39,528 nucleotides of DNA, taken from Comamonadaceae bacterium. Lineage in GTDB: Bacteria; Pseudomonadota; Gammaproteobacteria; Burkholderiales; Burkholderiaceae_C. The notes under the pieces were generated by a model. The model had not been told where the DNA came from, searched no databases, and worked only from the letters and a program-made list of their open reading frames with translations. The stretch covers positions 1 through 39,528 of the forward strand of contig JAUMYU010000017.1 of assembly GCA_030528485.1 (NCBI GenBank). Reading direction: 5' to 3'. Positions 1,241-38,776 of the stretch are shown piece after piece. How positions within the stretch are numbered: position 1 is the first letter of the stretch; every line of letters begins with the position of its first letter. A program made the position numbers and the translations under genes.

Positions 1241-1323
1241 AAAATTACAAATCAAAAGGAAATTAAATAACCCTTTTTTGGCATGATGGTATTACAATTG
1301 CATTTACTTTGATTTATAAAAAA
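1241..1323 (+). repeat. Intergenic AT-rich palindromic repeat, copy A
   Basis: Left arm ATTACAAATCAAAAGGAAAT, core TTTTGGCATGATGGTATT, right arm TTTACTTTGATTTATAA. It belongs to an eleven-copy family in this window. I call the orientation with the core GCCTTGTTTYGGC-ATGATGGTAT 'plus'; this copy is plus. It begins five bases after the purL stop and lies directly before the hairpin at 1323-1367. No ORF of its own is visible. Confidence 0.8.
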
Positions 1324-1367
1324 TACCAATGCAAACGGCCGCTTGATGCGGCCGTTTGTATTGGTAT
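1323..1367. terminator. Bidirectional hairpin terminator between purL and HMG-CoA lyase
   Basis: A 20-bp stem (1323-1342 with 1348-1367, a single G-T pair) encloses a 5-nt TTGAT loop. The inner stem is CAAACGGCCGC / GCGGCCGTTTG. On the minus strand the stem is followed by a run of six Ts, as expected for termination of the lyase gene that ends at 1461. It can also end purL transcripts arriving from the left. Confidence 0.85.
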
Positions 1368-1460
1368 TGGCATTCGCTCTGGTGGCGAGGGAGGGGCCAG
1401 CGGGGGATTGCCCGAGCGCCAGACAAGCTCGCTGGCCCTCAGGCTCCAACCATCACCCCT

Positions 1461-2369
1461 TCAACCCGCGCGTTTATTGAGCAGCGCCACCGCCACGCGG
1501 GACTGGTTTTTGCGGCCCAGGTGCTCGCTGATGAATTGGCCTGCATCCACGAGCTTGTCCAGATCAATGCCCGTTTCGATATCCATGCCGTGCAGCATAT
1601 ACACCACATCTTCCGTGGCCACGTTGCCCGTGGCGCCCTTGGCGTAGGGACAGCCGCCCAGGCCAGCAACGGAGGATTGGAAGTTGCTCACCCCCACCTC
1701 CATCGCCGCCAAAGTGTTGGCCAGGGCCTGGCCGTAGGTGTCGTGGAAGTGGCCGCTGATGTGCGCAATGTCGTAATAGCCCAGCGTCGCCTCGATGGCG
1801 GCCTGCACCTTGCGCGGCGTGCCCACGCCGATGGTGTCGGCCACGTCCACGCGCTGCACGCCTATCTCTTTCATCAGGCTGGCCAGGTAGGCCACTTTCT
1901 CGGGGGCGATATCGCCTTCGTAGGGGCAGCCGACGGTGCAGCTCATGGCGCCGCGCACGGCAATGCCCTGGGCCAGGGCGGCCTGAACCACCGGGGCGAA
2001 ACGCTCGATGCTCTCGGCAATGGAGCAGTTGATGTTCTTCTGGCTGAAAGCCTCGCTGGCCGCGCCAAAGACGACGATTTCGTCAGGCCGCGTGGGCAGC
2101 GCCGCTTCAAAGCCTTTCATGTTGGGGGTGAGCACGCTGTAGCGCACGCCGGCCTTGCGGGCGATGCCTGCCATGACTTGGGCGTTGTCGCCCATTTGCG
2201 GCACCCATTTGGGGCTGACGAAGCTGGTGACCTCGATTTCCTGCAAGCCCGCCTCTTGCAGCTTGTGCACCAGCTCGACCTTGATGGCGGCGGGCACGGG
2301 TTGTTTTTCGTTTTGCAAACCATCGCGCGGGCCAACGTCGATGATCTGGACTTTGCTGGGCAATGTCAT
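1461..2369 (-). CDS. mvaB: Hydroxymethylglutaryl-CoA lyase
   Basis: This 302-residue protein is a full-length HMG-CoA lyase. It cleaves HMG-CoA to acetyl-CoA and acetoacetate, the last step of leucine breakdown. The TIM-barrel HMGL-like domain begins with DVGPRDGLQNE (residues ~11-21), which carries the metal/substrate Arg-Asp pair. Near the C-terminus is the family signature GLGGCPYAKGATGNVATED with the catalytic Cys. A Shine-Dalgarno AGGAGA lies just upstream of the ATG at 2369. No other leucine-catabolism genes (isovaleryl-CoA dehydrogenase, methylcrotonyl-CoA carboxylase) are adjacent, unlike the liu clusters of many Burkholderiales. It appears to be transcribed alone, ending at the hairpin near 1345. 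Confidence 0.95.
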   Translation of the reverse strand: MTLPSKVQIIDVGPRDGLQNEKQPVPAAIKVELVHKLQEAGLQEIEVTSFVSPKWVPQMGDNAQVMAGIARKAGVRYSVLTPNMKGFEAALPTRPDEIVVFGAASEAFSQKNINCSIAESIERFAPVVQAALAQGIAVRGAMSCTVGCPYEGDIAPEKVAYLASLMKEIGVQRVDVADTIGVGTPRKVQAAIEATLGYYDIAHISGHFHDTYGQALANTLAAMEVGVSNFQSSVAGLGGCPYAKGATGNVATEDVVYMLHGMDIETGIDLDKLVDAGQFISEHLGRKNQSRVAVALLNKRAG

Positions 2370-2410
2370 GGCGGGGGGTCTCCTGGTGAAAGCGCAAAGG
2401 GAGAGCGCAA

Positions 2411-2492
2411 CATTTACATTTCAAAAAGCAAAGAAATCGCCTTGTTTTGGCAATATTATCAATGATCGCCTTTTCTTATGATCTGCAATATT
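2411..2492 (+). repeat. Intergenic AT-rich palindromic repeat, copy B (diverged)
   Basis: A core GCCTTGTTTTGGCAATATT is flanked by AT-rich arms (CATTTACATTTCAAAAAGC on the left, CTTTTCTTATGATCTGCAA on the right). It is the most diverged full-length copy, in plus orientation. It lies between the start of HMG-CoA lyase and the glnB terminator, so it may overlap the lyase promoter region. Confidence 0.65.
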
Positions 2493-2540
2493 AGCATGGA
2501 TGGCTGTAGGCGATGTTTGTTGCGTGGGGAGGCAGCGGCG

Positions 2541-2579
2541 GCAAAAACATCGGGCCTGTCAAAGGCCCGATGTTTTTGC
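2541..2579 (-). terminator. Rho-independent terminator of glnB
   Basis: A perfect 17-bp stem (2541-2557 with 2563-2579) with a 5-nt loop lies 12 bases past the glnB stop. Read on the minus strand, the stem closes with ATGTTTTTG, which supplies the T run. The stem contains CATCGGGCCT / AGGCCCGATG. Confidence 0.88.
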
Positions 2580-2590
2580 TCCAGATGCCA

Positions 2591-4010
<1,420 letters not shown>

Positions 4011-4057
4011 GGCGGTGGTCTCCTACAAGGGGCAGAGAGCAGGGCGAGGCGGCGGCA

Positions 4058-5170
4058 TCACATGCGGCCAAAGGAGAATGCCTCGCTCTGGGGTGTTTGC
4101 TCCACTTCGTCGATCAGGCGCAGCAGCGGGCGCAGCTCGCGGTAGCGGCTGGCGGTGCTGCGGATGTAGTGGATAAAGCGCGGTGCATCGGCCAGATATT
4201 GGGGCTTGCCGTCGCGCAGCGTCAGGCGCGCAAAAATGCCCGCCACTTTCAGGTGGCGTTGCAGGCCCATCCATTCCACCGCGCGGTAGAACTCGCCGAA
4301 ATCGCGCTCCAGCTCGGGCGCGCTGGCCAACAACCCGGCTTTGCGGGCGCGCTCCCAGTAACGCACGGCGATGTCGAGCACGAAATCCTCCTCCCAACTG
4401 TGGAAGGCGTCGCGCAGCAAGCTGGCCAGGTCGTAGGTGATGGGGCCGTGCAGCGCGTCCTGGAAATCCAGCAGGCCGCTCAGGCGCGCGCCCTGCCCCG
4501 CCGCATCGGGCTGCACCATCAGGTTGCGCAGCATGTAATCGCGGTGGACAAAGACCTGCGGCACGGCCAGGTTGCGCGCCACGATGAGCTCAAAGCTCTG
4601 GTGCAGGCATTGGGTTTGGCTGGCGCTGAGCTCGGCCTGGCGGTGCCGGCCCAGGTACCACTGCTCGAAAAGCCGCAGCTCCTGGCGCAGCTTGTCGGCG
4701 TCGTAGGCGGGAGCCGACTGTGCGGGAACGCGGGTCTGCATGGCGATGAGCCAATCCAGCGCCTGCACCATCAGCGGCTGGGCGCGCCGGGCGGTATCTT
4801 CGCCGCCGTTGGGGGCGTCTTGCGCAGCGGCCAGCAGGTATTGCAACGCGGTTTGGCGGCCCAGGTCGTTCATGAGGACGAAGCCGTTTTGCACATCTGC
4901 CGCCAACACCTCCGGCACGGGCAGGCCCGCTTGCTGCAAAAGCTGGTCGATGTGCAAAAAGGCCGCCAGCGGCTCTTTGTCCGGCGGGGCGTCCATGATG
5001 ATGCGGCTTTGGCCCTGCCGGTCGTGCACGCGCAGGTAACGCCTGAAGCTGGCATCGGCGCTGGCCAGCTTCAAGGTGCCGGCATCCAGGCCGTGGGCAA
5101 GCGCCTGGGCGGCGAACCAGGCGTCAAAACAAATGCGGCGTTCAGGGTCTTCCCACGGGATGCTGTTCAT
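4058..5170 (-). CDS. amgK: AmgK-like aminoglycoside-phosphotransferase-fold sugar kinase
   Basis: This 370-residue kinase has the APH fold. An N-terminal nucleotide-binding lobe begins with ADASFRRYLRV and IIMDAPPDKEP (residues ~38-66). The catalytic loop is VFVHRDYMLRNLM (Asp211, Asn216), and the metal-binding motif is LLDFQDALHGPITYD (Asp235). These motifs match AmgK, the anomeric N-acetylmuramate/N-acetylglucosamine kinase of the peptidoglycan recycling bypass in pseudomonads and betaproteobacteria. The usual partner MurU is not adjacent; an oxygenase gene follows instead. NagZ, which acts upstream in recycling, is encoded 25 kb away in this window. The ATG at 5170 is preferred; the in-frame TTG at 5182 would add four residues. 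The Shine-Dalgarno is weak (GAGAAAA). The function is inferred from family resemblance. Confidence 0.8.
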   Translation of the reverse strand: MNSIPWEDPERRICFDAWFAAQALAHGLDAGTLKLASADASFRRYLRVHDRQGQSRIIMDAPPDKEPLAAFLHIDQLLQQAGLPVPEVLAADVQNGFVLMNDLGRQTALQYLLAAAQDAPNGGEDTARRAQPLMVQALDWLIAMQTRVPAQSAPAYDADKLRQELRLFEQWYLGRHRQAELSASQTQCLHQSFELIVARNLAVPQVFVHRDYMLRNLMVQPDAAGQGARLSGLLDFQDALHGPITYDLASLLRDAFHSWEEDFVLDIAVRYWERARKAGLLASAPELERDFGEFYRAVEWMGLQRHLKVAGIFARLTLRDGKPQYLADAPRFIHYIRSTASRYRELRPLLRLIDEVEQTPQSEAFSFGRM

Positions 5171-5250
5171 GGCTTTTCTCAAACTGTGCTGCCCGCCATT
5201 GTATGAATAGGCAGCCTGGGATTTGGGCTGAAAGCGACACTTTGACGAAA

Positions 5251-5334
5251 TACAAATTTTTTAAATCAAAATAAAATTCAATTAAATACCATCATGCCAA
5301 AATAACATGTTTTTATTTCTTTTTGAATTGTAAT
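5251..5334 (-). repeat. Intergenic AT-rich palindromic repeat, copy C
   Basis: On the minus strand it reads ATTACAATTCAAAAAGAAAT, then a core TTATTTTGGCATGATGGTAT, then TTTTATTTTGATTT. It is very close to copy A. It starts one base after the stop codon of the exonuclease gene (TGA at 5338-5336). Minus orientation. The AT-rich DNA continues to the start of the kinase gene at 5170. Confidence 0.82.
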
Positions 5335-5335
5335 C

Positions 5336-6127
5336 TCAAAGACCCGCATGCTGTTGTGCGCGCCGCTGTTGCTCTGCGCGGGCCATGGCGGCGATGAGTT
5401 CGCCCCAGGTTGCCATGCCCAGCGCCTGCGCCCTGGCCAGCGCAACCAATGCCAATTCGGCGGTGGCCATCGCATCGGCCACGGCGTGGTGGCGCTCGCT
5501 ATTGCCCAGGCGCAAGGCGCGCAGCCACGCATCCAGATCGGCGCCCAGCGCGGCATGCTCGGGGAACAGCAGCGGCATGGCGTGCGCCAGGTCGTACACC
5601 TTGGGCAAGCGCCCGCCCTGCGCCGTCAGCCCCAGCCACTGCTGCGCGGCGCGGTGCAGCATCGTTTCGTCAAACCAGGCGTGCCAAGCCAGCCAGATCG
5701 CATCTCGCCCCCAATCGAGCAATTCCAGCAACGCCTGGCGCGGGTCTTGCCCCCGGGCCAGATCGGCTTGCGTCATGCCGTGGAATAACTGGCTATCGGG
5801 CTTGAGCTGCACTTGCACCGCCAGCACGCGCTCCCACGTTTGCCCCAGCGCAATGCCCAGGCCCTGGCCGCCTGCATCTGGCTCCAGGCGCACGCCACCG
5901 ATGGACAAGATGGTGTCGCGCTTGAGATCCAGCCCCGTTGTCTCCAGGTCGAACACCACCACCGCCTGCTGCCGCAAGCCTTGCGCGCCCGCTTGCATCA
6001 TGGCGGGCCACTGCGCCAGTTGTGCGGCCAGTGCCTGCTGCTCGCTGCTTGACAGCGCCTTCTGCGCCTGCACGGCTGGCGCGCCCGCGCTTGCGCCACC
6101 CAGCCATTGCCTGATCCGATCCCACAT
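5336..6127 (-). CDS. 3'-5' exonuclease of the DnaQ/epsilon (DEDDh) family
   Basis: This 263-residue protein is a DEDDh exonuclease. ExoI is VVFDLETTGLD (Asp60, Glu62), ExoII is AWHAWFDETML (Asp153), and ExoIII is ERHHAVADAM (His213, Asp218). All four metal-binding acids and the general-base His are present. The N-terminal ~50 residues form an Ala/Gln-rich helix before the catalytic domain. Such standalone proteins resemble the proofreading subunit but lack its C-terminal polymerase-binding segment, so a role in DNA or RNA 3'-end trimming is likely but unspecified. The ATG at 6127 has AAAGG upstream; an in-frame TTG at 6148 would extend it by seven residues. The stop touches repeat copy C. Confidence 0.88.
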   Translation of the reverse strand: MWDRIRQWLGGASAGAPAVQAQKALSSSEQQALAAQLAQWPAMMQAGAQGLRQQAVVVFDLETTGLDLKRDTILSIGGVRLEPDAGGQGLGIALGQTWERVLAVQVQLKPDSQLFHGMTQADLARGQDPRQALLELLDWGRDAIWLAWHAWFDETMLHRAAQQWLGLTAQGGRLPKVYDLAHAMPLLFPEHAALGADLDAWLRALRLGNSERHHAVADAMATAELALVALARAQALGMATWGELIAAMARAEQQRRAQQHAGL

Positions 6128-6265: not shown

Positions 6266-6294
6266 CATGGTCTCAGTGGGCTTCAAGCCATTGT

Positions 6295-8648: not shown

Positions 8649-9002
8649 ATGAAAGAACTGGATTTTTCCTCCGTGCTGGCCGTGCTGCAGGAAATGCTGG
8701 GCGCGCCCCTGCTGATTGCCCTGCCCCTCATCAGCATCCTGGGCACACTGGCCTTCTTGCTGCTGTTGCTGCGCGAGCGCCGCCTGGCGCCTGCGCGCCT
8801 GGTGGCCTGCCAATTCCTGGGCATCATCGGTGGCGCATTGGCTCTGGCTTTGATGTTCCAGGTGGCATCTTCGGGCAGCACCAACCCCGGCGGCGCCATC
8901 GACTGGCTGGTTATCGGGCTGGTGTACGTACTGGGCTGGATCGGTACAACCATCGTGTGCTACAGCATCGCTGGCTGGCTTGGCGGCGCACGCAACCGAT
9001 AA
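8649..9002 (+). CDS. Small membrane protein, DUF5368-like
   Basis: This 117-residue protein has about three to four membrane segments (~18-40, 50-70 and 85-110) separated by a basic loop (LLRERRLAPARLV). It starts 27 bases after the stop of the SQR-like gene, with an AAGGAG-type site (GACAAGGAGAACGACAC) before the ATG, so the two are almost certainly one transcript. It resembles the uncharacterised DUF5368 group (MKEL...QEMLG start, IDWLVIGLVYVLG middle), but I cannot confirm this without a profile search. It has no cysteine pair or heme motif, so it is more likely a membrane partner or anchor than an electron carrier. Confidence 0.7.
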   Translation: MKELDFSSVLAVLQEMLGAPLLIALPLISILGTLAFLLLLLRERRLAPARLVACQFLGIIGGALALALMFQVASSGSTNPGGAIDWLVIGLVYVLGWIGTTIVCYSIAGWLGGARNR

Positions 9003-9005
9003 GCC

Positions 9006-9085
9006 AATTCCAAATCAAAAGAAAAACCCCATTATGTCCAATATGCCATAATGGGGTTATTTTTTATCCTTTGATTTATAAAAAT
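9006..9085 (-). repeat. Intergenic AT-rich palindromic repeat, copy D (core replaced by a hairpin)
   Basis: Outer arms AAATCAAAAGAAAAA and TTATCCTTTGATTTATAAA are typical of the family. The centre is a GC-containing palindrome instead of the usual core. The copy lies between two convergent stop codons (9002 on plus, 9087 on minus) and fills nearly the whole 84-bp gap. Minus orientation is assigned from the arms. Confidence 0.75.
9025..9065. terminator. Bidirectional terminator inside repeat copy D
   Basis: A perfect 12-bp stem (AACCCCATTATG at 9025-9036 with CATAATGGGGTT at 9047-9058) and a 10-nt loop. It is followed on the plus strand by ATTTTTT and on the minus strand by TTTTTC. It can end both the SQR-like operon and the methyltransferase gene. 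Confidence 0.88.
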
Positions 9086-9086: not shown

Positions 9087-9671
9087 TCAACGCAACACCA
9101 CCAAGCCGGGCTTGCGGGAAATCCGATACACCGATGCAGGCGGGATATTGCGCCACGTCTTGCCTTTGAGTTCCGCACGCAAATGCAGCGCATCCAATAT
9201 GCCCGGTGGCACAGGGCAGCGCGATCCGTAGGTGAAAAGAAAAAAACTGCCGCCATCGCCCAGGTGATGAAACGCACCTTGCAAAATGCGCCGCACCACA
9301 TCCTCAGGCATATTGAGCAGCCCCAGGCCACACACAACCGCCCCGGCGGGCCTGCCATCAAACAGGCGCTGGCTGTCTAAAGTTGCCGCGTCCACTTGCA
9401 AAACGTTCAGGCCGGGATGGCGCATTTGCAGCAGCTTGGCAAACGTCGCATCCAGCTCCACCACCGTAATGGCCTGTTGCGGCACGCCGCGATTGAGCAT
9501 TGCCCGCGTAAACACCCCCGTGCCTGGCCCCAGCTCCAGAATCGGGCCGTTCTCTGGGCCAATTTCACTGGTAATGAGTTCGGCCAGCGCTTTGCCAGAA
9601 GGCGCTACGGCTGCAATTTTGCGAGGCTGGCGAAGCCATCTCTTGATGAAAAGCGCTGCATCCTGGGGCAT
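9087..9671 (-). CDS. Class I SAM-dependent methyltransferase, PmtA-like
   Basis: This 194-residue protein has a Rossmann methyltransferase core. Motif I is ILELGPGTGVFTRAML (~44-59), followed by VVELDATFAKLL (motif II acid) and LQVDAATL. The N-terminus FIKRWLRQPRKIAAVAPSG resembles the N-terminal region of small bacterial phospholipid N-methyltransferases and related rRNA-dimethylase-like proteins. Phospholipid methylation is therefore plausible but unproven; other small-molecule substrates are possible. No clear Shine-Dalgarno precedes the ATG at 9671. Its stop is one base from repeat copy D. It follows the DUF1178 gene with a 154-base gap and may have its own promoter. Confidence 0.78.
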   Translation of the reverse strand: MPQDAALFIKRWLRQPRKIAAVAPSGKALAELITSEIGPENGPILELGPGTGVFTRAMLNRGVPQQAITVVELDATFAKLLQMRHPGLNVLQVDAATLDSQRLFDGRPAGAVVCGLGLLNMPEDVVRRILQGAFHHLGDGGSFFLFTYGSRCPVPPGILDALHLRAELKGKTWRNIPPASVYRISRKPGLVVLR

Positions 9672-27127: not shown

Positions 27128-27841
27128 ATGCAAGGGATGGATTGGGCCGCGCTCGCCGCAGCGTGTCTGGGCGCATACCTCTTGGGCTCTGTGCCCTTTG
27201 CCGTCATCGTCAGCCGCCTCATGGGCCTGGCCGATCCGCGCTCGTTTGGCAGCGGCAATCCGGGCGCGACCAACGTGCTGCGCTCGGGCAGCAAATCCGC
27301 CGCCGCCCTGACCTTGCTGCTCGATGCCGCCAAAGGCTGGCTGCCCGTGGCCCTGGTGGGCTGGTGGGGCCTGCGCTACGGCCTGGGCGCAGGCGCGCAA
27401 ACGCTGGTGGGGCTGTGCGCCTTTGCCGGGCACGTCTGGCCCGTCTTTTTGCGCTTCAAGGGCGGCAAAGGCGTGGCCACCGCCCTGGGCGTACTGCTGG
27501 GCATCAGCCCCTGGCTGGGGCTGCTGGTGGCCGGCGTTTGGCTGCTGGCGCTGGCAGGCTCGCGCATGTCCTCGCTCTCGTCGCTGCTGGCGGCGGCGGC
27601 GGCCCCCATCATTTACTGGCTGGGCTCCGGCCTGGCCTGGGGCAGCACGCCGCAAGTGCCCTTCATGCTGGGCGTGATGGCGGTGATTTTGTTTTACCGC
27701 CACAGCAGCAACATCGCCCGCCTGCTGGCCGGCACCGAACCGAAAGTGGGCCAAAAAAGCGCCGCGCCCCACACCACCGCAACCGCCCACGCTCCCGCGC
27801 CCCGGCTGACCAAGGCGCAGCGCAAAAAGCGCAACCGCTAA
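27128..27841 (+). CDS. plsY: Glycerol-3-phosphate acyltransferase PlsY
   Basis: This 237-residue membrane enzyme transfers the acyl group from acyl-phosphate to glycerol-3-phosphate, the first step of phospholipid synthesis. It has about five membrane segments and the family motifs GSVPFAVIVSR, GSGNPGATNVLR, HVWPVFLRFKGGKGVAT and a closing YRHSSNIARLLAGTE. The C-terminus is a basic tail (LTKAQRKKRNR) beyond the usual end. The ATG at 27128 has GGAG nine bases upstream; the ATG at 27089 is rejected. It is divergent from glmU, and its stop is 8 bases before repeat copy E. Confidence 0.95.
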   Translation: MQGMDWAALAAACLGAYLLGSVPFAVIVSRLMGLADPRSFGSGNPGATNVLRSGSKSAAALTLLLDAAKGWLPVALVGWWGLRYGLGAGAQTLVGLCAFAGHVWPVFLRFKGGKGVATALGVLLGISPWLGLLVAGVWLLALAGSRMSSLSSLLAAAAAPIIYWLGSGLAWGSTPQVPFMLGVMAVILFYRHSSNIARLLAGTEPKVGQKSAAPHTTATAHAPAPRLTKAQRKKRNR

Positions 27842-27849: not shown

Positions 27850-27928
27850 AAAATTCCATTCAAAAGAAAACACAATAACCACCCATATCGCCAAAGAACG
27901 CAATTTTTATTTCTTTTGAATTGAAAAA
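27850..27928 (-). repeat. Intergenic AT-rich palindromic repeat, copy E
   Basis: Arms CCATTCAAAAGAAAAC and TTTTATTTCTTTTGAATTG enclose a diverged core (CATATCGCCAAAGAACGCAA). Minus orientation. It fills the 89-bp junction between the plsY stop and the acpS ATG, ending two bases before the ATG. So acpS has no ordinary Shine-Dalgarno. Confidence 0.8.
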
Positions 27929-27930: not shown

Positions 27931-28359
27931 ATGATTTACGGCATCGGCACCGACATCTGCGACATCAGCCGCATCGCCCAGGCGCTGGAGCGCCACGGCG
28001 AACGCTTCGCGCAAAAAATCCTCAGCGACGCCGAACTGGCCACCTGGCAGCGCCGCGCGGCGCGCAATGCTGCACGCGGGCACAGCTTCATCGCCACCCG
28101 CTTTGCCGCCAAGGAAGCCTTTAGCAAAGCCATCGGCCTGGGCCTACATGCCCCCATGAACTGGCGCGACTGCGAAGTGGCCCACCACCCCAGCGGCCAG
28201 CCGCGCATCCACACCCATGGCGCCCTGCACGATTGGTGCCAGGCGCGCCGGCTGCGCTTTCACCTCACCCTCACCGATGAAAACGACTACGCCGTGGCCT
28301 TTTGCATCGCGGAAACCGACGCCGCCCCCGCGCCCGGTCAGCAAAATTACCAATCATAG
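27931..28359 (+). CDS. acpS: Holo-[acyl-carrier-protein] synthase
   Basis: This 142-residue enzyme transfers the 4'-phosphopantetheine group from CoA to ACP. The metal-binding residues are visible as Asp8 in [12 protein letters not shown] and Glu62 in [13 protein letters not shown]. The fold is the short trimeric AcpS type. The last residues (NYQS) and the stop codon are encoded within repeat copy F, so the C-terminus was set by the repeat. In most betaproteobacteria acpS follows pdxJ and precedes nagZ. Here plsY is upstream and a dehydratase-like gene separates it from nagZ. The ATG lies directly after repeat copy E with no Shine-Dalgarno. Confidence 0.95.
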
Positions 28360-28423
28360 GAAAATTAACAATATTACCAAATTGCCGAAACAAGGCAATT
28401 TTATTTCCTATTGATCGATAAAA
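28343..28423 (-). repeat. Intergenic AT-rich palindromic repeat, copy F
   Basis: It reads AAAATTACCAATCATAGGAAA ... TTTCCTATTGATCGAT on the plus strand, with the core ACCAAATTGCCGAAACAAGG. Minus orientation. It overlaps the last 17 bases of acpS including its stop codon. Both arms carry a TA/AT change relative to the family's AAAAGG, preserving pairing. Confidence 0.83.
28379..28405 (+). terminator. Core hairpin of copy F, possible weak terminator after acpS
   Basis: A perfect 8-bp stem AAATTGCC / GGCAATTT (28379-28386 with 28394-28401) with a 7-nt GAAACAA loop. It is followed by TATTTCC, which gives a short T-rich tail. Its GC content is low, so it may be leaky. Confidence 0.5.
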
Positions 28424-28446: not shown

Positions 28447-29424
28447 ATGCCACACATGCCCTTGCCCACCCTGGCCGAGATCGAGGCCGCCGCCCGCATC
28501 ATTTACCGCGAATTCCCGCCCACGCCCCAATACCGCTGGGCCTTGCTGTGCGAGCGCCTGGGCGCCGAATGCTGGCTCAAGCACGAAAACCACACCCCCG
28601 TAGGCGCGTTCAAGATTCGCGGCGGGCTGACCTACTTTGCCGCCCTGCATGCGCGCGGCGCGCTGCCGCGCGAAGTCATCAGCGCCACGCGCGGCAACCA
28701 CGGCCAAAGCATCGGCTGGGCCGCCCGCGCCCACGGCGTGCCCTGCACCATCGTCGTGCCCCACGGCAACTCGGCCGAGAAAAACGCCGCCATGCGCGCA
28801 CTGGGCGTCAACCTTGTTGAATACGGCGAGGACTTCATCGCCAGCGTCGATCACGCCCAGCGCCTGGCGGCCGAGCGCGGCGCGCACATGGTGCCCAGCT
28901 TCGCGCCCGAGCTGCTCACCGGCGTGGCCACTTACTGGTGGGAATTTTTCAAAGCCGCGCCCGCGCTGGACGTGGTTTACGTCCCCATCGGCCTGGGCAG
29001 CGGCGCGTGCGCGGCCATCGCCGCCAAGCAGGCGCTGGGCCTGCCCACGCGCATCGTCGGCGTCGTCAGCCGCCACGCCACCACCTATGCCGATTCGCTG
29101 GCCGCAGGCCGCGTTGTCGAAGCAGCCGCCAGCACCCGCCTGGCCGATGGCATGGCCGTGCGCCGCGCCCACCCCGAAGGGCTGGCCATCATGCAAGCGG
29201 GGCTCGATCGCATCGTGCAAGTGAGCGACGAAGAAATCGCCGCCGCCATGCGCGCCATTTACAGCGACACCCACAACCTGGCCGAAGGCTCGGGCGCGGC
29301 CTCCTTCGCCGCCGCCATGCAAGAGCGCGACAGCCTGCGCGGCCAGCGCGTGGGCATCACCCTCACCGGGGCCAATATCGACGCAGGCGCTTTCGCCCAA
29401 GTCCTGCACGGCAGCGCCCCATGA
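28447..29424 (+). CDS. Threonine/serine dehydratase-like PLP enzyme
   Basis: This 325-residue protein belongs to the fold-type II PLP family. The Schiff-base Lys is Lys56 in HTPVGAFKIRGG, the substrate loop is SATRGNHGQS (~79-88), and the phosphate-binding Gly loop is PIGLGSGACAA. There is no ACT regulatory domain, so it resembles catabolic threonine dehydratases or hydroxyaspartate dehydratases rather than biosynthetic IlvA. The exact substrate is not readable. Repeat copies F and G flank it on both sides in the same orientation, and it separates acpS from nagZ, an unusual position. No Shine-Dalgarno precedes the ATG. Confidence 0.85.
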   Translation: MPHMPLPTLAEIEAAARIIYREFPPTPQYRWALLCERLGAECWLKHENHTPVGAFKIRGGLTYFAALHARGALPREVISATRGNHGQSIGWAARAHGVPCTIVVPHGNSAEKNAAMRALGVNLVEYGEDFIASVDHAQRLAAERGAHMVPSFAPELLTGVATYWWEFFKAAPALDVVYVPIGLGSGACAAIAAKQALGLPTRIVGVVSRHATTYADSLAAGRVVEAAASTRLADGMAVRRAHPEGLAIMQAGLDRIVQVSDEEIAAAMRAIYSDTHNLAEGSGAASFAAAMQERDSLRGQRVGITLTGANIDAGAFAQVLHGSAP

Positions 29425-29430: not shown

Positions 29431-29510
29431 TGATTTACAAATCAAAATAAAATCTACTTTATATCCATCAAGCCAAAAACAGGCGATTTCATTTCCCTTG
29501 ATCGATAAAT
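29431..29510 (-). repeat. Intergenic AT-rich palindromic repeat, copy G
   Basis: Left TGATTTACAAATCAAAATAA, core ATCCATCAAGCCAAAAACAG, right CATTTCCCTTGATCGATAAA. Minus orientation. It fills the 88-bp junction between the dehydratase stop and the nagZ ATG and ends two bases before that ATG. Confidence 0.82.
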
Positions 29511-29512: not shown

Positions 29513-30646
29513 ATGCCCGCCACGCACGCCCCGCTATTCATCGACATCGCCGGCACAGAGCTGCAAGCCATCGACCGCGAGCGCCTCGCGCACCCGCTGG
29601 TGGGCGGCCTCACCCTGTTCGCGCGCAACTGGCAAGACCGCCGCCAGCTCACCAGGCTGTGCGCCGACATCAAAGCCGTACGCCGCGACCTGCTCATCTG
29701 CGTCGATCAGGAAGGCGGGCGCGTGCAACGCTTTCGCGGCGACGGCTTCACCGCCCTGCCGCCCATGCGCACGCTCGGCCAGCTCTGGCTGGAAGGCAGC
29801 CCGAGTGCGCCACGGCCTGACCCAAGCAAGCGCCCCAACGTCCCTGCTAATGAAGCCCTCCCCCCCAGCGCGCAACGTGCCATCGCCGCCGCCACCGCCT
29901 GCGGCTACGTGCTCGCCAGCGAACTGCGCGCCTGCGGCGTGGATTTGAGCTTTACCCCCGTCGTCGATCTCGACTGGGGCGGCAGCACCGTCATCGGCGA
30001 CCGCGCCTTCGCCCCCGATGCCGCCACCACCGCCCGCCTGGCCCAGGCCCTCATCCACGGCCTGCGGCAAGCGGGCATGCAGCACTGCGCCAAGCACTTC
30101 CCCGGCCACGGCTACGTGCAAGCCGATTCGCACACCGACATCCCCTACGACCAGCGTCCCCTGCCAGCCATCTTGCAAGACGACGCCGCCCCCTACGCCT
30201 GGCTACAACCGGGGCTGGCCGCCGTCATGGCCGCGCACGTCGTCTATCCCCAAGTCGATGAGCGTCCCGCCGGTTTTTCCGCCCGCTGGCTCACCGACAT
30301 CCTGCGCGGCCAGCTCGGCTTTGACGGCGCCATCTTCAGCGACGACCTCAGCATGGCCGGCGCAGGGGCGATGGCCGGGCGCAGCCTCAGCGCCACCGAA
30401 GCCGCCATCGCCGCCCTGCACGCGGGCTGCGACCTGCTGCTGCTGTGCAACCAAAGCCTGCACGGCGGCGCGGCGCTGGACGCCTGGCTCGGCGGCATGC
30501 ACACCGCCCTGCAAACCGGCCAATGGCAACCCAACCCCCAATCCGAACGCCGCCGCCAAGCCCTGCTGCCCACCCTCCCCGCTCCGGGCTGGGACGCCCT
30601 CATGCAAACGCCCGCCTACCAGCAGGCGCTGGCGCAGTTGCCATAG
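29513..30646 (+). CDS. nagZ: Beta-N-acetylhexosaminidase
   Basis: This 377-residue glycoside hydrolase family 3 enzyme removes GlcNAc from muropeptides in cytoplasmic peptidoglycan recycling. The motifs are ICVDQEGGRVQRF, KHFPGHG (residues 194-200), DSH (205-207, the mobile-loop catalytic His) and FSDDLSM with the nucleophile Asp. About 25 Pro/Ser-rich residues (roughly 93-118) are inserted after the GGRV segment relative to typical NagZ; this is a surface-loop region. The ATG at 29513 is preferred. A TTG at 29498 lies within repeat copy G and would add five residues. Confidence 0.95.
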   Translation: MPATHAPLFIDIAGTELQAIDRERLAHPLVGGLTLFARNWQDRRQLTRLCADIKAVRRDLLICVDQEGGRVQRFRGDGFTALPPMRTLGQLWLEGSPSAPRPDPSKRPNVPANEALPPSAQRAIAAATACGYVLASELRACGVDLSFTPVVDLDWGGSTVIGDRAFAPDAATTARLAQALIHGLRQAGMQHCAKHFPGHGYVQADSHTDIPYDQRPLPAILQDDAAPYAWLQPGLAAVMAAHVVYPQVDERPAGFSARWLTDILRGQLGFDGAIFSDDLSMAGAGAMAGRSLSATEAAIAALHAGCDLLLLCNQSLHGGAALDAWLGGMHTALQTGQWQPNPQSERRRQALLPTLPAPGWDALMQTPAYQQALAQLP

Positions 30647-30675: not shown

Positions 30676-31380
30676 TCAAAACCTCGCAGGCGACTCAAAC
30701 GCCAGCTCTTTGCCGCTGACGGGGTGGGTAAACGCCAGCTCGCGCGCGTGCAGCAGCAGGCGCGGCGCGGCGCCAAGCGATTCGCCCTGGGCGTAGAGCG
30801 GATCGCCCAGGATGACATGACCCTCGCTCTGCAAATGCACGCGCAATTGGTGGGTGCGGCCCGTTACCGGCTCCAAATCCAGCCGCGTGTGGGCGATGGG
30901 GTAGTCCGGATCGCCCGGGCGGGCGGGCAGGATGCGCCAGCGCGTCTGGCTGGGCTTGCCGTTGACGGGATCGACCACATGCAGCGGGCGGCGCTCCCAA
31001 TCGAGCGCCAGGGGCTTGTCGATCACGCCCCAGCCCTGGGCGTCGGGCTGCGCAGGCGCTGCCATCACACCCGCCACCACCGCCGTGTAGCGCTTGTGCA
31101 CGCGCCGCTGGGCAAAAGCCATCGAGAGCTGGCGATGCACTTCGGGATTGCGCGCCAGCACCAGCAGGCCAGAGGTGGACATATCCAGCCGGTGCACGAT
31201 CAGCGCATTGCGCCAGTACTGCTGCGCCCGCCAGGCCAGCGAATCGCGCTTGTGCTCGCCGCGCCCGGGCACGCTGAGCATTTCATGCGGCTTGAAAAGC
31301 ACCAGCAGGTGCTTGTCCTCATACAGCGCCTGGGGGCGGGGCAAGGCGGCGGGGAGATCGGCCAGATTCGGTTCTTCCAT
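30676..31380 (-). CDS. rluA: Dual-specificity RNA pseudouridine synthase RluA
   Basis: This 234-residue pseudouridine synthase closely follows E. coli RluA, which modifies 23S rRNA U746 and tRNA U32. It shows KPHEMLSVPGRGEHKRDSL, the catalytic Asp in VHRLDMSTSGLLVLA, the tRNA/rRNA recognition segment IDKPLALDWERRP, and GRTHQLRVHLQ. There is no S4 domain, as expected for RluA rather than RluC/D. The ATG at 31380 lacks a Shine-Dalgarno; a TTG at 31416 is an alternative. It converges with nagZ, their ends 29 bases apart. Confidence 0.9.
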   Translation of the reverse strand: MEEPNLADLPAALPRPQALYEDKHLLVLFKPHEMLSVPGRGEHKRDSLAWRAQQYWRNALIVHRLDMSTSGLLVLARNPEVHRQLSMAFAQRRVHKRYTAVVAGVMAAPAQPDAQGWGVIDKPLALDWERRPLHVVDPVNGKPSQTRWRILPARPGDPDYPIAHTRLDLEPVTGRTHQLRVHLQSEGHVILGDPLYAQGESLGAAPRLLLHARELAFTHPVSGKELAFESPARF

Positions 31381-31683
31381 CGTGTGGCAAAAGCGGGAGC
31401 AGGGGCGCGCAATCAAGCTAAATTACAATTCAATAGGAAAATAAATTGCCTTGTTTCGGCAATTCTGTATTGAAATCAAATATTCTTTGATTTGTAATTC
31501 AAGCAACACGCATCAAACAGCCCGCTATTGTGCCGCCGCTGGGCGCTCGTGCAGCGCAACGGGCTGCGGGCGGCAGGCCGCGCCCTGCGCAACGCGCGCC
31601 GATAATGGCGGGCCTTTGTCTGGCCCCCATGCGGCCGCTTTTTTTGCTCCCCCTTTTTTGTCCCCTTTTTGCCCGATCGCACC
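31381..31683. other. Divergent intergenic region rluA/recQ
   Basis: This 303-bp region contains repeat copy H (31419-31498) and a strongly pyrimidine-rich plus-strand tract at about 31638-31675 (runs of T6-T7 and C4-C5) just before recQ. Promoters for both genes should lie here, but I find no convincing -35/-10 pair. No additional gene is supported. Confidence 0.5.
31419..31498 (+). repeat. Intergenic AT-rich palindromic repeat, copy H
   Basis: Left TAAATTACAATTCAATAGG, core AAATTGCCTTGTTTCGGCAA, right TTCTTTGATTTGTAAT. Plus orientation. The core hairpin has the same sequence as the reverse complement of copy F. The six-base word TCAAGC occurs directly on both sides (31413-31418 and 31499-31504), which could be a target-site duplication. 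Confidence 0.85.
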
Positions 31684-33588
<1,905 letters not shown>

Positions 33589-34590: not shown

Positions 34591-34603
34591 AAGCCACGCA
34601 CAG

Positions 34604-34642: not shown

Positions 34643-34645
34643 GAT

Positions 34646-34722
34646 TGGTCGGCGTGGCGGGATTCGAACTCGCGACCCCTTGCACCCCATGCAAGTGCGC
34701 TACCTGGCTGCGCTACACGCCG
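34646..34722 (-). tRNA. tRNA-Pro (anticodon GGG)
   Basis: The cloverleaf reads with a perfect 7-bp acceptor stem (CGGCGTG / CACGCCG), then A and an encoded CCA (34648-34646). The anticodon stem CTTGC/GCAAG encloses the loop ATGGGGT, giving GGG at 34688-34686 with G37. The T-arm contains GAGTTCGAATCCC. It reads proline CCC/CCU codons. Confidence 0.97.
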
Positions 34723-34733
34723 GAAAGCTGCGC

Positions 34734-34761
34734 ATTGTAGCCTACAAAATGGCCTCCCCAA
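34734..34761 (-). promoter_or_regulatory. Predicted promoter of tRNA-Pro
   Basis: On the minus strand TTGGGG is separated by 16 bases from TACAAT (5/6 match to -10). The -10 is 11 bases before the mature 5' end. The GC-rich stretch after it (GCGCAGC) resembles stringently controlled stable-RNA promoters. It overlaps the last codons of the merR-like gene. Confidence 0.55.
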
Positions 34762-35191: not shown

Positions 35192-35494
35192 GAACCGCAA
35201 TGACGAGGGGGTCAATGGAGAAAGAAAAACCGGCGGGCCTGCGCGCCATCGTCAGCGCCGCATGCGTGTTCGAAGGCGGCGCTTGGGGTGCCGGCGCAAA
35301 GGCGCTCCCGGGCAGGCTGGGCGCAAGGCGCGGGCATGATAGCGTCAGTCGCGGCGCTGGCCGGGCGGCCCCCGGTGTTTATGCGTGCCAATGCCACCCC
35401 TGCGCGGCTTTCTGTTGCAAGGTTGCCGTTTGAAAGCAACGGCTTGCTGTCCCGCCTGGGCCTGAGTTTTTTGTCTCCCCTTTTCTTTTCTCGC
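35192..35494. other. Divergent intergenic region merR/trmJ
   Basis: This 303-bp region has no supported gene. It contains a small inverted repeat GCCGTT/AACGGC near 35427-35445. A pyrimidine-rich plus-strand tract (TTTTTTGTCTCCCCTTTTC, 35468-35486) lies just before the trmJ start. No copy of the AT-rich repeat is present. Promoters for both genes presumably lie here. Confidence 0.5.
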
Positions 35495-36292
35495 ATGAAA
35501 ACCCGTTTCATCCTGATTCAAACCAGCCATGCCGGCAATGTGGGCGCAGTAGCGCGCGCGATGCGCACGATGGGTTTTGACGATTTGGTGCTGGTAGCGC
35601 CGCGCTGGCCCGATGTGTTGCGCATGCCCGAGGCGATCGAGCGCGCCAGCGGGGCCACGGATGTACTGGCGGCGGCGCGCGTGGTGCCGCGGCTGGAGGA
35701 TGCGCTCGATGGCGTGCAGCACCTGTGCGCCACGGCGATGGTGGCGCGCGATTTTGGCCCGCCCACTTGCACGCCGCGCACGCATTTCACGCAGTTGATG
35801 GCGCAGGCCAGGGCGGACGAGGCGGGCCTGCCTTCGGTGGCGTTTTTGTTTGGCAGCGAACGCTACGGCATGCGCAATGAGGATGTGTACCGCTGCCATG
35901 TGGCGTTGCAAATCCCCAGCGATCCGGCGTTTGGCTCGCTGAACCTGGCAGCGGCCGTGCAAGTCATTGCCTACGAATGGCGGCTGTGCCTGGATGCGCT
36001 GGGCCTGGCGCCGTATGCGCCCCAGGGCGATGCGGGCGGGGTTGCAAACGCGCTGACTGGCGCGGACACGCCCGCCGATGCGGCCACGGTGGCAGCGATG
36101 CTGGCGCATTGGCGCCAGGGCCTGGAGGCCATTGGCTATCTGGACCCGCAAGCGCCCAAAAAGCTGATGCCGCGTTTGCAGCAGTTGTTCAACCGCGCCC
36201 GGCCCACGCCGCAGGAGATTCACATCCTGCGCGGCATTGCCAAGTCCATGCTGTACACGGCGCAGCAGGCGCACAAGGGGGATGGGGCGTAG
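35495..36292 (+). CDS. trmJ: tRNA (cytidine/uridine-32-2'-O)-methyltransferase TrmJ
   Basis: This 265-residue SPOUT methyltransferase methylates the ribose of residue 32 in tRNA. TRFILIQTSHAGNVGAVARA opens the fold. The SAM-binding knot appears in AFLFGSERYGMRNEDVYRCH and IPSDPAFGSLNLAAAVQVIAYE. The C-terminal region (LFNRARPTPQEIHILRGIAK) is the TrmJ-type dimerisation tail. The ATG at 35495 fits the family start; a longer frame upstream is not conserved. No Shine-Dalgarno is visible, only a pyrimidine tract. Confidence 0.92.
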   Translation: MKTRFILIQTSHAGNVGAVARAMRTMGFDDLVLVAPRWPDVLRMPEAIERASGATDVLAAARVVPRLEDALDGVQHLCATAMVARDFGPPTCTPRTHFTQLMAQARADEAGLPSVAFLFGSERYGMRNEDVYRCHVALQIPSDPAFGSLNLAAAVQVIAYEWRLCLDALGLAPYAPQGDAGGVANALTGADTPADAATVAAMLAHWRQGLEAIGYLDPQAPKKLMPRLQQLFNRARPTPQEIHILRGIAKSMLYTAQQAHKGDGA

Positions 36293-36312
36293 GCCGACGC
36301 CTGCGCATGATG

Positions 36313-36397
36313 ATTTTTTACAGATCAAAAAGATAAAAAATCACTCCATTTCGGCATGATACTCAATGCATCGAGTTTCCATTGAAATGGAATTTCA
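36313..36397 (+). repeat. Intergenic AT-rich palindromic repeat, copy I1
   Basis: Left TTTTTTACAGATCAAAAAGAT, core CATTTCGGCATGATACTCAA, right TTTCCATTGAAATGGAATTTC. Plus orientation. It is the first of a tandem pair between trmJ and the convergent yigZ-like gene. Confidence 0.72.
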
Positions 36398-36405
36398 CAA
36401 AACAA

Positions 36406-36484
36406 CAATTAACCATTCAAAGGATAAAAAACACCCTTGTTTCGGCAAGCCCAGCCTTCAGCCGCATTGCCTTTGAACTGCAAT
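36406..36484 (+). repeat. Intergenic AT-rich palindromic repeat, copy I2
   Basis: Left CAATTAACCATTCAAAGGAT, core CCCTTGTTTCGGCAAG, right a diverged GCCTTTGAACTGCAAT. Plus orientation. It ends three bases before the yigZ-like stop codon on the minus strand. Confidence 0.7.
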
Positions 36485-36487
36485 GCG

Positions 36488-37075
36488 TCACAACTCCAAC
36501 CACTGCACGCTGCCTTGCGTGGCGTCGTTGATGGCTTGCTGCAAAGCGGCGGCTTCGCTTTCGCGCACGCTGGCCTGCATGCGCACCCGCGCGCCGTGGG
36601 CGGTTTCAAGCAGGCTGGCCTGGCGCTGCTCCAGCAGGCGGCGCACCAGCCCTTCTTGCGCGTAATCGACGGCAAAAGCCAGCGTCACCACCGCTTGCAG
36701 TTCGATTTTTTCGGCGTGCAACAGGGCCTGGGCCACGGTGTCGGTGTAGGCGCGCACCAGCCCGCCCGCGCCCAGCTTCACACCGCCGAAATAGCGCACC
36801 ACGGTGGCCAGCACGCCTTCCAGATGCTGATGGCGCAACACCTCCAGCATGGGGCGACCGGCCGTGCCCGCTGGCTCGCCATCGTCCACCGCCGCCGACT
36901 CGCCCCCGGCCATCAAGGCCCAGCACACGTGGCGCGCCTGCGGGTGCTGCTGCCACAGCTCGGCCACGATGCTTTGCGCCTGGCTGCGGCCGCTGACGGG
37001 CTGCACACAGCCAATGAAGCGGCTTTTCTTGATGACGATTTCGCTATGAACGGGGCTTTTGAGAGTCTGGCGCAT
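36488..37075 (-). CDS. yigZ: YigZ/IMPACT family protein
   Basis: This 195-residue protein belongs to the UPF0029/Impact family, shown by DDGEPAGTAGRPMLEVL and ATVVRYFGGVKLGAGGLVRAY in the N-terminal domain. A C-terminal DUF1949-like alpha/beta domain follows. Members are linked to translation or stress regulation, but the biochemical role in bacteria is not settled. The ATG at 37075 starts MRQTLKSPVHSEI; the Shine-Dalgarno is weak. It follows the GNAT gene by 65 bases in the same direction. Confidence 0.9.
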   Translation of the reverse strand: MRQTLKSPVHSEIVIKKSRFIGCVQPVSGRSQAQSIVAELWQQHPQARHVCWALMAGGESAAVDDGEPAGTAGRPMLEVLRHQHLEGVLATVVRYFGGVKLGAGGLVRAYTDTVAQALLHAEKIELQAVVTLAFAVDYAQEGLVRRLLEQRQASLLETAHGARVRMQASVRESEAAALQQAINDATQGSVQWLEL

Positions 37076-37140
37076 GGCGGTGGCAAAAGATCATCGAGCG
37101 TTCGGATACGGGCAACAGGGCGGGCAGCAAGGCGCGCCGC

Positions 37141-37701
37141 TCAATGCCCGCGCAACGGCCCCAACGCCCGCGTGAGGTAGCGCGCGCCCGCGCCATAGCC
37201 GCCGAGCTTGTGCGCCATGCCGGGCAAGCTGCGCGCGGGTTCGGCGTAGCCTTGTTTTTGCCAATACCCCACGGCGCTCTCCAGCGCCACCAAGGCGGCC
37301 TGACGCAAGCCCACGGCCTGCGCGTGCGCGGCAGCGGTGCGGTACAGCGCCTGGCCCACGCCCAAACCTTGGCAGTGGGCAGCCACGGCGCAATCGTGCA
37401 AAAACCAGGTGGTCGCGGGGCTGGGCAAGGTGTGCAAAGGGGCGTTGAGCGCGGGCGGCAGGCCATCCGCCCAGGGGTAGGCGATGAGGTAGCCCAGCAG
37501 GGACGCGCTGGCGGGTGCAAAGGCGGGCGCGCTGGCGGGCCGCGCCACCCAGCAAGTGCTGGGCGAGAGGGCCAAACGGTTGCGGAAAAACGCCGCATCT
37601 TCCAGCAAATGGGCGGGGTAGGCGCTGGCTTGCACGGCCAGCGCCTGGGCGATGTCGCTCAGGTGCATGGGGGTGATGGCGTAAGCGGGTTGGGCCTTCA
37701 T
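37141..37701 (-). CDS. GNAT family N-acetyltransferase
   Basis: This 186-residue protein has the GNAT acetyl-CoA motif A (HDCAVAAHCQGLGVGQALYRTA, with the Q-x-x-G-x-G type pyrophosphate loop) and motif B (ALVALESAVGYWQKQGY). The start ATG at 37701 overlaps the EamA stop (ATGA), so the two genes are translationally coupled. The substrate is unknown. The pairing with a metabolite exporter suggests they handle a common small molecule. Confidence 0.83.
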   Translation of the reverse strand: MKAQPAYAITPMHLSDIAQALAVQASAYPAHLLEDAAFFRNRLALSPSTCWVARPASAPAFAPASASLLGYLIAYPWADGLPPALNAPLHTLPSPATTWFLHDCAVAAHCQGLGVGQALYRTAAAHAQAVGLRQAALVALESAVGYWQKQGYAEPARSLPGMAHKLGGYGAGARYLTRALGPLRGH

Positions 37702-38660
37702 CGGCACTGCTCCTCTGTGCGATTGGCGGCGGCGCGCTGGCGCAGGCCGGGGGCCATGCGGCCGAAGTGCATGACCAGCATGCCCGCCACGGCCAGCGCC
37801 GCGCCGGCGGCCAGGGAGATATGCAGGGCCTCGCCCAGCCACAGCGCGGAAAAGCCCATGCCGAAGATGGGCACCAGCGAGATATACGCCGCCGCATTGC
37901 CCGCCCCCAGCGCCTTGACGCCAGCGAAAAACCAAGCGTAAGCCAGCACGGTGGCCAGCGCCACAATCGCCAGCAGGCTGGCCCAGCCCCGCGCCGGGGC
38001 GGCCCACATGGCCGACCACGCGCCCGGGCCTTCAATCAGCCAGGCGCACAGGAGCAGCAACACCGCCCCGATCAGCGATGTGACGGTGACGGTGGCCAGG
38101 GCCTCCATGCCTTGCAGCTTGCGGCCGATCAAGGTGTAAATGGCCCAACTGGCCACGCAGCCCAGGATCAGCCCCTCGCCCAACCCCAGCCCGCCCGCCA
38201 GCGCCTGCATGGGATGGCCCTGGGTAATGGCCCAAATGGCGCCCACCACCGTCATGCCCATGCCCAGGCCAATCCAGAGGTTGATCCGCTCCTTGAACAG
38301 CCAGGCCGCCAGCAGCAGCGTGGCCACGGGATTGAGGGTGATGAGCACGACCGCCTTGCTGGCGGGGATGCGTTGCAGCCCGAGCATGAAGAACACGGCG
38401 TACATGCACACGCCCGTGGCCCCGGCGGCCAGCAGCCACAGCCACTGGCGCGCGGGCAGGCCGCGCAAACTGTGCGCGCGCCCGCTGTGGCGCAGCCAGA
38501 GAAACAGCAGCGCGCTGGCGAGCAAAAACCGCAGCGCCGAGGACGTCAGCGGCGGCATGCTCTGCGTCACGATCTTGGCCCAGGGCCAGGACGCGCCCCA
38601 GACGGCGGCCATCGCCAGCAGCCGCGCATGAATGCCCCAGGGGGCGGGGGTGGTTTGCAT
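37698..38660 (-). CDS. EamA/DMT-family permease
   Basis: This 320-residue protein has ten hydrophobic segments in two homologous EamA halves. Typical sequence includes GASWPWAKIV near the N-terminus and LVPIFGMGFSALWLGE in the second half. Such permeases export amino acids or other metabolites; the substrate is unknown. The ATG at 38660 (MQTTPAPWGIH) is chosen without Shine-Dalgarno support; an ATG at 38708 is in frame. Its stop couples to the GNAT gene. Confidence 0.87.
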   Translation of the reverse strand: MQTTPAPWGIHARLLAMAAVWGASWPWAKIVTQSMPPLTSSALRFLLASALLFLWLRHSGRAHSLRGLPARQWLWLLAAGATGVCMYAVFFMLGLQRIPASKAVVLITLNPVATLLLAAWLFKERINLWIGLGMGMTVVGAIWAITQGHPMQALAGGLGLGEGLILGCVASWAIYTLIGRKLQGMEALATVTVTSLIGAVLLLLCAWLIEGPGAWSAMWAAPARGWASLLAIVALATVLAYAWFFAGVKALGAGNAAAYISLVPIFGMGFSALWLGEALHISLAAGAALAVAGMLVMHFGRMAPGLRQRAAANRTEEQCR

Positions 38661-38698
38661 GGGTGGGGGGTGATTCGCGCAAAGGCGAGGTATTGCTA

Positions 38699-38776
38699 AA
38701 ATTTCCAATCAAAAGAAAAACAACCTCAATACCATCAAGCCGAAACAAGGCAGTTTTTTATCCTTTTGATTTGAAA
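38699..38776 (-). repeat. Intergenic AT-rich palindromic repeat, copy J
   Basis: Left AATTTCCAATCAAAAGAAAA, core TACCATCAAGCCGAAACAAG, right TTATCCTTTTGATTTGAAA. Minus orientation. It is a near-consensus copy lying between the rpoD terminator and the EamA start. Confidence 0.85.

Follow-up and report, generated by a model that had tools for sequence, protein, structure and literature searches.

Whether the high-copy intergenic repeats of bacteria have a function is an old question, because placement alone cannot separate function from tolerance. It is raised again by a 39,528-nt stretch of contig JAUMYU010000017.1 of Comamonadaceae bacterium GCA_030528485.1 (the window; its genome is called G000 below), in which a short AT-rich element with inverted arms occurs eleven times. 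Such repeats are a known kind, and in the present case the evidence of function, as read from sequence comparison, is unusually direct: two genomes about 95% identical share the sites, dozens of copies are selected on exact letters, and neither hairpin covariation nor recent movement was seen, so that function becomes directly testable. Our answer, to which we assign a probability of roughly 0.45, is that the element is a duplex DNA site bound by a putative protein or protein complex, and that it would form a boundary at gene ends by limiting read-through or by holding supercoils.

The second genome is Allofranklinella schreckenbergeri NML 97-0147 (G009; NZ_RDQM01000004.1), which shares with the window two aligned blocks, one of 15.2 kb (95.6% identity) and one of 4.9 kb (95.4%). 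G000 consists of 132 contigs and is 80.5% complete, G009 is 99% complete, and, apart from searches of whole genomes, the results below refer to the stretches examined, 0.426 Mb of G000 (18%) and 1.589 Mb of G009 (57%). In the key test, each G000 copy was compared with the syntenic G009 DNA. The partners were not picked by detection, so decayed partners would be visible, and conserved columns (≥90%) were defined from 308 other G009 copies outside the comparison. With 58 of 61 loci used (three were dropped, the partner stretch being too long), the proportion of differing sites rose from 3.7% in conserved columns (46 of 1257) through 15.1% in middling ones (147 of 973) to 24.1% in variable ones (393 of 1632; conserved versus variable, Fisher 3e-59; rank correlation -0.87 over inner columns). 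An earlier version with 54 detected pairs, from which 6 of 60 pairs below 75% identity had been dropped, gave 30/1072 for conserved and 329/1385 for variable columns.

Within 60 nt around the 54 copies, divergence was 18.1% in intergenic DNA (612/3382) and 7.8% in coding DNA (225/2901). Variable columns thus behave as unconstrained DNA, and conserved columns change about five to six times more slowly than the intergenic flanks. Since 51 of the 54 pairs had no or one change in conserved columns, selection appears to act on nearly all copies compared. Substitutions were even across loci (mean 10.0 and variance 13.5 per pair), and their distribution lacked the second peak that replaced copies would produce; this evenness is evidence against wholesale replacement or conversion. 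Judged by this divergence, nearly every copy compared is under purifying selection in place, and because the same letters are preserved, the copies look like working binding sites and not like dead transposon debris.

All eleven copies in the window were found where the original prediction had placed them, six in one direct-repeat family and five in another. They align almost gap-free over 76 positions (alignment A1, 11 x 77 columns, mean column identity 74%), and R1, a sequence-only model built from them, recovers 11 of 11 with E values of 1.3e-19 to 9.7e-14. Five are on the plus and six on the minus strand, and they contain 17–45% GC in a window of 60% GC; both properties had been predicted, as had the absence of copies among the nuo genes at 10.5–25.2 kb of the window. 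The claim that all lie between genes holds for ten copies and needs a slight correction for copy 6. The copies, with coordinates in the window, strand, surrounding open reading frames (ORFs) and R1 scores, are as follows.

Copy 1, 1244..1319 (+): convergent gap, 8 nt past the stop of ORF 105-1235 (+); 62.5 bits, E 1.5e-17.
Copy 2, 2413..2488 (+): co-directional gap between ORFs 1461-2369 (-) and 2591-2935 (-); 60.1 bits.
Copy 3, 5259..5334 (-): 1 nt off the stop of ORF 5336-6073 (-); 55.3 bits.
Copy 4, 9008..9081 (-): occupies the whole convergent gap between ORFs 8649-9002 (+) and 9087-9671 (-); 56.6 bits.
Copy 5, 27854..27927 (-): occupies the whole gap between ORFs 27128-27841 (+) and 27931-28359 (+); 50.3 bits.
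Copy 6, 28347..28422 (-): covers the last 13 nt of ORF 27931-28359 (+, ACPS domain); 64.0 bits.
Copy 7, 29435..29509 (-): occupies the whole gap between ORFs 28456-29424 (+, PALP) and 29513-30646 (+, Glyco_hydro_3); 57.7 bits.
Copy 8, 31422..31497 (+): the only window copy whose gap, flanked by ORFs 30676-31380 (-) and 31669-33588 (+, RecQ-like), is divergent; 59.8 bits.
Copy 9, 36317..36392 (+): first member of a tandem pair; the gap, flanked by ORFs 35495-36292 (+, SpoU) and 36488-37075 (-, UPF0029), is convergent; 56.0 bits.
Copy 10, 36409..36483 (+): second of the tandem pair with copy 9; 51.2 bits.
Copy 11, 38702..38777 (-): the top R1 match in the window, between ORFs 37698-38660 (-, EamA) and 38825-39514 (-, sigma-70 factor); 69.1 bits, E 1.3e-19.

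Two other inverted repeats lie near these copies. Right after copy 1, between the convergent genes, positions 1323-1367 form a long palindrome with a GC-rich centre, which is kept in G009 with differences in the outer arms and looks like a bidirectional terminator separate from the element. Near copy 2, positions 2524-2596 hold an inverted repeat of 34 nt with 5 nt between its arms, which are 79% complementary.

Hundreds of copies per genome had been predicted from the density in the window, and this estimate held: R1 has at least 151 matches in G000, where the scoring was limited to 150 of 1,495 candidates. The examined stretches contain 107 non-redundant copies in G000 (one per 4.0 kb) and 369 in G009 (one per 4.3 kb), which extrapolates to about 590 and about 650 per genome, respectively; 2.0 Mb of Markov-resimulated DNA (200-nt blocks) gave no match at the same threshold. 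Among 40 genomes including G000, searched at E 0.01, there were at least 120 matches in G009, 4 in G005 (Vandammella animalimorsus NML 00-0135, NZ_NSJB01000001.1), 1 each in G007 and G008, and none in the other 35. Hundreds of copies thus occur only in G000 and G009 among the genomes searched, and the other eight genomes of the genus have 0–4. Related Burkholderiales, which the original prediction had proposed to search, do not seem to carry the element. At E 1e-4, a family sample of 399 genomes yielded matches only in G000, G009, G005 and G007, all of the element's own genus, and an order sample of 399 genomes yielded G000 and one weak match (G789, E 9.3e-5); in both samples 12 candidates per genome were scored with strict filters, so that weak distant relatives could be missed.

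The family also appears to be undescribed, as the original prediction supposed. Rfam, searched with the window at the gathering threshold, returned a tRNA and no match to the element, searches of the open-licence PubMed Central literature listed no description of the family, and the plasmid and phage collections, queried with one copy, gave no match. A relation to a Comamonadaceae repeat of the form ATCAAAA...TTTTGAT was considered and rejected, as no such pair was present in the 1.42 Mb examined for it (79 loci).

Nothing indicates that copies have moved recently, since the two Allofranklinella genomes parted. Both flanks of 61 of the 107 G000 copies could be mapped into examined G009 DNA (the other 46 could not), and at 60 of these 61 loci a G009 copy is present in the same gap or within 90 nt of it; the sole unoccupied locus, G000 C113, has an ambiguous flank (76.7% identity). 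In the reverse direction, 56 of 369 G009 copies were mapped by both flanks (313 were not), and all 56 loci were occupied. No clear case of the empty sites that the original prediction had proposed to look for between close strains was therefore found at the mapped loci, and there is no clear presence/absence difference among them. When 341 G009 copies were compared with one another, identity to the closest other copy had a median of 80% and a maximum of about 90%.

An older acquisition is visible in the comparison of G009 with Vandammella, for which 46 conserved neighbour pairs were defined by reciprocal best hits between the G009 and G005 stretches. The six co-directional G009 gaps with an element are longer than their G005 counterparts by a median of 123 nt (quartiles 62–166; a small sample), and for the 39 co-directional gaps without an element the median length difference is 0.

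The architecture of the element was examined in both Allofranklinella genomes, where 186 copies give a consensus of roughly tTTacaaaTCAAaAgGAAA.aAAAt..cCttgTTTcGGCAt.atggt.at.aa.t...tTTTcctTTGATttg.AA. Its arms are two inverted 17-nt repeats, TTACAAATCAAA.GGAAA and the complement, and a strongly conserved, asymmetric TTTyGGCA box lies at their dyad. Inverted half-sites with a consensus of about TTACAAATCAAAAGGAAA are situated some 30 bp on either side of this central box. In 276 copies, conservation has sharp limits at positions of about -40 and +40 relative to the GGC of the box.

Spacing within the element falls into discrete classes. By a profile-based measure, which dropped 89 of 476 copies lacking a clear box or half-site, the distance from the 5' half to the box is 29–32 nt in 385 of 387 copies and 40 nt in two; from the box to the 3' half it is 25–29 nt in 376 of 387 and 37–38 nt in 11, with none between. 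A scan that used half-sites only gave 279 best pairs, with 222 at 62–65 nt, 18 at 66–72, 15 at 73–75 and 11 at 37–38; in the examples inspected at 37–38 nt, one half-site is in fact part of the centre, and those at 68–70 nt mostly look like shifted reads of an arm. That the spacing step is about one helical turn fits a complex contacting one face of the helix, although this is suggestive only. An earlier measure, which had suggested spacing steps at 20, 31 and 42 nt, was replaced by the profile-based one, its 20-nt class consisting mainly of false TTGA matches inside the element.

Placement relative to genes was analyzed with genes called by our own script (82–89% coding). By these calls, 468 of the 476 copies were intergenic, whereas 7 lay within a gene and 1 at an edge. 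Copies occupied 134/235 convergent, 272/1204 co-directional and 35/230 divergent gaps, and in co-directional gaps they were located at a median of 21 nt from the upstream stop and 79.5 nt from the downstream start. After subtraction of the element length, convergent gaps were the fullest in seven of seven gap-length bins; for example, in the 100–150 nt bin a copy was present in 31/48 convergent, 43/154 co-directional and 2/26 divergent gaps. Orientation was random, both relative to the upstream gene (135 of 282 copies on its strand) and between neighbouring copies (235 of 459 pairs shared it), and 24 of the 459 neighbouring pairs were less than 60 nt apart. A bias by strand or replichore was considered and not supported: none was clear, one small contig of 17 (6 minus, 0 plus) giving p 0.031. 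Random orientation together with a conserved, asymmetric central box argues for recognition as duplex DNA.

We propose the following course of events, with the protein, its mode of binding and the boundary function inferred from constraint, spacing and orientation. About 600 copies would have been acquired in the Allofranklinella lineage, then fixed mainly downstream of stop codons, and would now be kept in place by purifying selection. A putative protein or complex may bind both half-sites and the central box together. The bound site would act as a boundary, which most likely limits read-through of RNA polymerase between neighbouring, above all convergent, genes, or pins supercoils.

Several observations weigh against this proposal. 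Some ascertainment remains on the G000 side of the selection test, where copies entered because they matched the model. The longer spacing class has few members, which may all belong to one subfamily, and the cruder scan also has its 18 pairs at 66–72 nt. The repetitive extragenic palindromic (REP) families, as described in PMC3733652, likewise favour 3' ends and convergent gaps, so that there is nothing new in the placement as such, and an insertion that is merely tolerated would give the same picture. Of the six element-bearing gaps mentioned above, four correspond to Vandammella gaps of only -4, 24, 38 and 42 nt; a strong block of transcription there would be harmful, which argues that any block is partial. 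In a sample of convergent gene ends, the share with a terminator-like hairpin was 44% where an element is present (n=160), 36% where it is absent (n=117) and 24% in Vandammella (n=72), compared with 1–5% in shuffles. Since ordinary terminators are equally frequent beside elements and without them, the element is not needed as a substitute terminator, and this role was not supported. Finally, for the candidate binding proteins HU/IHF and H-NS, family counts in the ten genomes of the genus showed no carrier-specific expansion: HU/IHF had 3 matches in eight genomes, 2 in G003 and 0 in G008, and H-NS had 1 match in nine genomes and 2 in G004.

A supercoiling anchor is a related but unlikely explanation. 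It holds that gyrase, another topoisomerase or an architectural protein binds the site and relieves positive supercoils at gene ends; such a role has been proposed for bacterial interspersed mosaic elements (BIMEs) in enterobacteria. It would be consistent with the strongest enrichment being in convergent gaps, with the dyad architecture, central box and footprint of about 80 bp, with independence of orientation, and with the spacing variants of +10/11 nt (about one helical turn) in 11 of 387 copies. However, no intrinsic curvature was predicted beyond dinucleotide shuffles (end-to-end ratio 0.958 versus 0.955, 288 copies), the arms do not match, by eye, the IHF consensus in its TTR half, and gyrase is universal as far as is known, whereas the genomes searched show the element in a single lineage.

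It is also improbable that the element acts in RNA, as a hairpin that ends transcription or stabilizes mRNA 3' ends in the manner of a terminator or a REP. Copies do often lie just after stop codons, and in 311 copies the inner folds were slightly better than in re-paired controls (-5.9 versus -5.3 to -5.5 kcal/mol, p 0.013; 21% versus 14–19% at -8 kcal/mol or lower), with single copies reaching -24. Re-pairing of the left and right inner segments, however, revealed no position-specific complementarity. Covariation analysis of 186 copies detected no pairing diagonal for the arms or the centre, and 19 of the 20 most strongly coupled column pairs were at most 3 nt apart. Of the arm pairs that changed between the two genomes, pairing was gained or lost in 104, compensatory changes preserved it in 3, and 24 belong to neither class. 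A hairpin of the arms, or of the GCC...GGC centre, as a conserved feature was accordingly rejected. Random orientation in spite of the asymmetric box is a further difficulty for this explanation. A minority of copies have a strong hairpin between the arms (for example, G009 C23 137561-137643); perhaps these are terminators that arose inside the element.

The element resembles intrinsic terminators in lying downstream of stop codons and in being able to serve convergent genes. It differs in lacking a conserved GC stem with a T-run kept in each copy by compensation, such a hairpin being present in a minority of copies, and in that the usual terminators are separate at many of the same gene ends. 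Among gene ends with both, 18 of 71 convergent and 8 of 40 co-directional ones showed an overlap; at the remainder the terminator was located before or after the element, so overlapping hairpins occur and independent terminators coexist with the element.

As to REPs, PMC3733652 describes those of the GTAG and CGTC types as tagged stem-loops of 20–40 bp with alternative complementary stem bases and enrichment at 3' ends; CGTC REPs seem to have no dedicated transposase, and REPtrons can be lost. On that description, the element is similar to REPs and BIMEs in its high copy number, palindromic and intergenic nature and location near gene 3' ends, mostly in convergent or unidirectional gaps, but in contrast to the 20–40 bp REPs with their GTAG or CGTC tag it is 76 bp long, AT-rich and without a covarying stem. 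There was no stem-loop with compensating changes (3 compensatory versus 104 gained or lost pairs), and in place of an unpaired GTAG or CGTC tag the ends read TTAC...G(T/A)AA, as column frequencies and at the consensus level only. A REP-associated tyrosine transposase (RAYT)-like gene, for which the original prediction had proposed a search, was not found: Y1 transposase (PF01797) had 0 matches in G000 (80.5% complete) and G009 (99% complete), and matches were present in five of the ten genomes of the genus, none of them a carrier.

Equally poor, and already disfavoured by the constraint test, are the prospects of a fossil miniature inverted-repeat transposable element (MITE), that is, a repeat spread by some transposase in the Allofranklinella stem, which landed where it was harmless and is functionless now. 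MITEs such as the NEMIS/Correia elements are short and non-coding and have inverted terminal arms; the element shares these features, its 17-nt arms providing the terminal inverted repeats. Acquisition since the Vandammella split, with six element gaps a median of 123 nt longer, the 24 close neighbours (under 60 nt) among 459 and a weak excess of 3–4-nt flank repeats over re-paired flanks (4-mers 6.1% versus 2.4%, 296 copies; the flanks are AT-rich and 324 frames were tested) would also suit a MITE. However, functionless copies should decay alike at all columns, and the observed columns do not. Nor was there an insertion polymorphism or a recent copy, as mapped loci were occupied in both genomes (60 of 61 without a clear difference) and the best copy-to-copy identity was about 90%. 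The element further differs from MITEs in that no clear target duplication was observed, its centre is conserved and asymmetric, and its copies appear to be under selection. No autonomous element with the same ends was seen: 2.0 Mb examined contained 19 solo half-sites, and no two of them bracket a gene. The examined 57% of G009 has only one ORF family of ≥70% identity with more than two members, four near-identical 156-aa ORFs that are IS5-type transposase-like by eye (stretches L148-L167 and L188-L247), and none has an element within 150 nt.

The original prediction had likened the element to a MITE or a REP/BIME-type family. High copy number, intergenic location, inverted arms and genome-wide spread were correctly seen; membership in the REPs was not supported, and membership in the MITEs is at best historical. 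A MITE origin is possible; present mobility was not seen. Either category misses the main point, which is that individual copies are under purifying selection in place.

Gene conversion that keeps copies alike could make conserved columns look selected only because all donors share them, and it would produce little divergence in shared columns and much in variable ones. It is nevertheless highly improbable, as divergence is even over loci, locus-specific letters persist in the variable columns of the aligned pairs inspected, the median identity of a G009 copy to its closest counterpart in that genome is only 80%, and conversion leaves the original conservation of the columns unexplained.

Another short repeat of Betaproteobacteria, also usually intergenic, is BRE, which according to PMC3110155 is about 90 bp long, belongs to Bordetella and Comamonadaceae, is listed from several genera, and averages 69% GC in Bordetella. 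Compared with that description, the element is AT-rich (17–47% GC), mostly single and found in one lineage among the genomes searched, whereas BRE is in tandem at some loci. We do not assign the element to BRE, judging from the description of BRE and not from a sequence alignment, on the basis of its GC content, the 24 close pairs in 459 and the absence of matches in other genera of the family sample.

If the reading as a protein-bound duplex site is correct, a wider and rather doubtful extension of it would be a lineage-specific DNA-binding system, in which about 600 tripartite sites of 76 bp, spaced at one per few genes and lying mostly near 3' ends, serve as genome-wide boundaries of transcription or topology. 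Such a system may have arisen after the Vandammella split and been fixed at shared sites before the two Allofranklinella genomes parted, and it would be a bacterial counterpart of boundary elements derived from a once-mobile repeat. The conserved boxes define a bait for the putative binding protein, and hundreds of natural loci can serve as replicates. Should such a protein be found, it would mean that this lineage made a chromosome-wide layer of regulation or architecture out of a repeat that had spread.

A few copies also occur outside the two carriers. At a looser limit, G005 has two full copies, one weak full-length copy and further weaker or partial matches, and G008 has one full copy. 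A 2.8-kb block that is 88% identical between G005 (C18, around 81484) and G009 (C1:363647-366438), two genomes with a median protein identity of 72%, contains the element at the same place in both, which makes horizontal exchange a plausible source of the few Vandammella copies. At least one further repeat, roughly 170 nt long, occurs between genes in V. animalimorsus G005, and its copies are mostly 83–98% identical (L251, L253, L257 and L262); an example lies at G005:C1:277517-277824, and the best-connected of the 228 gaps has 16 matches to other gaps.

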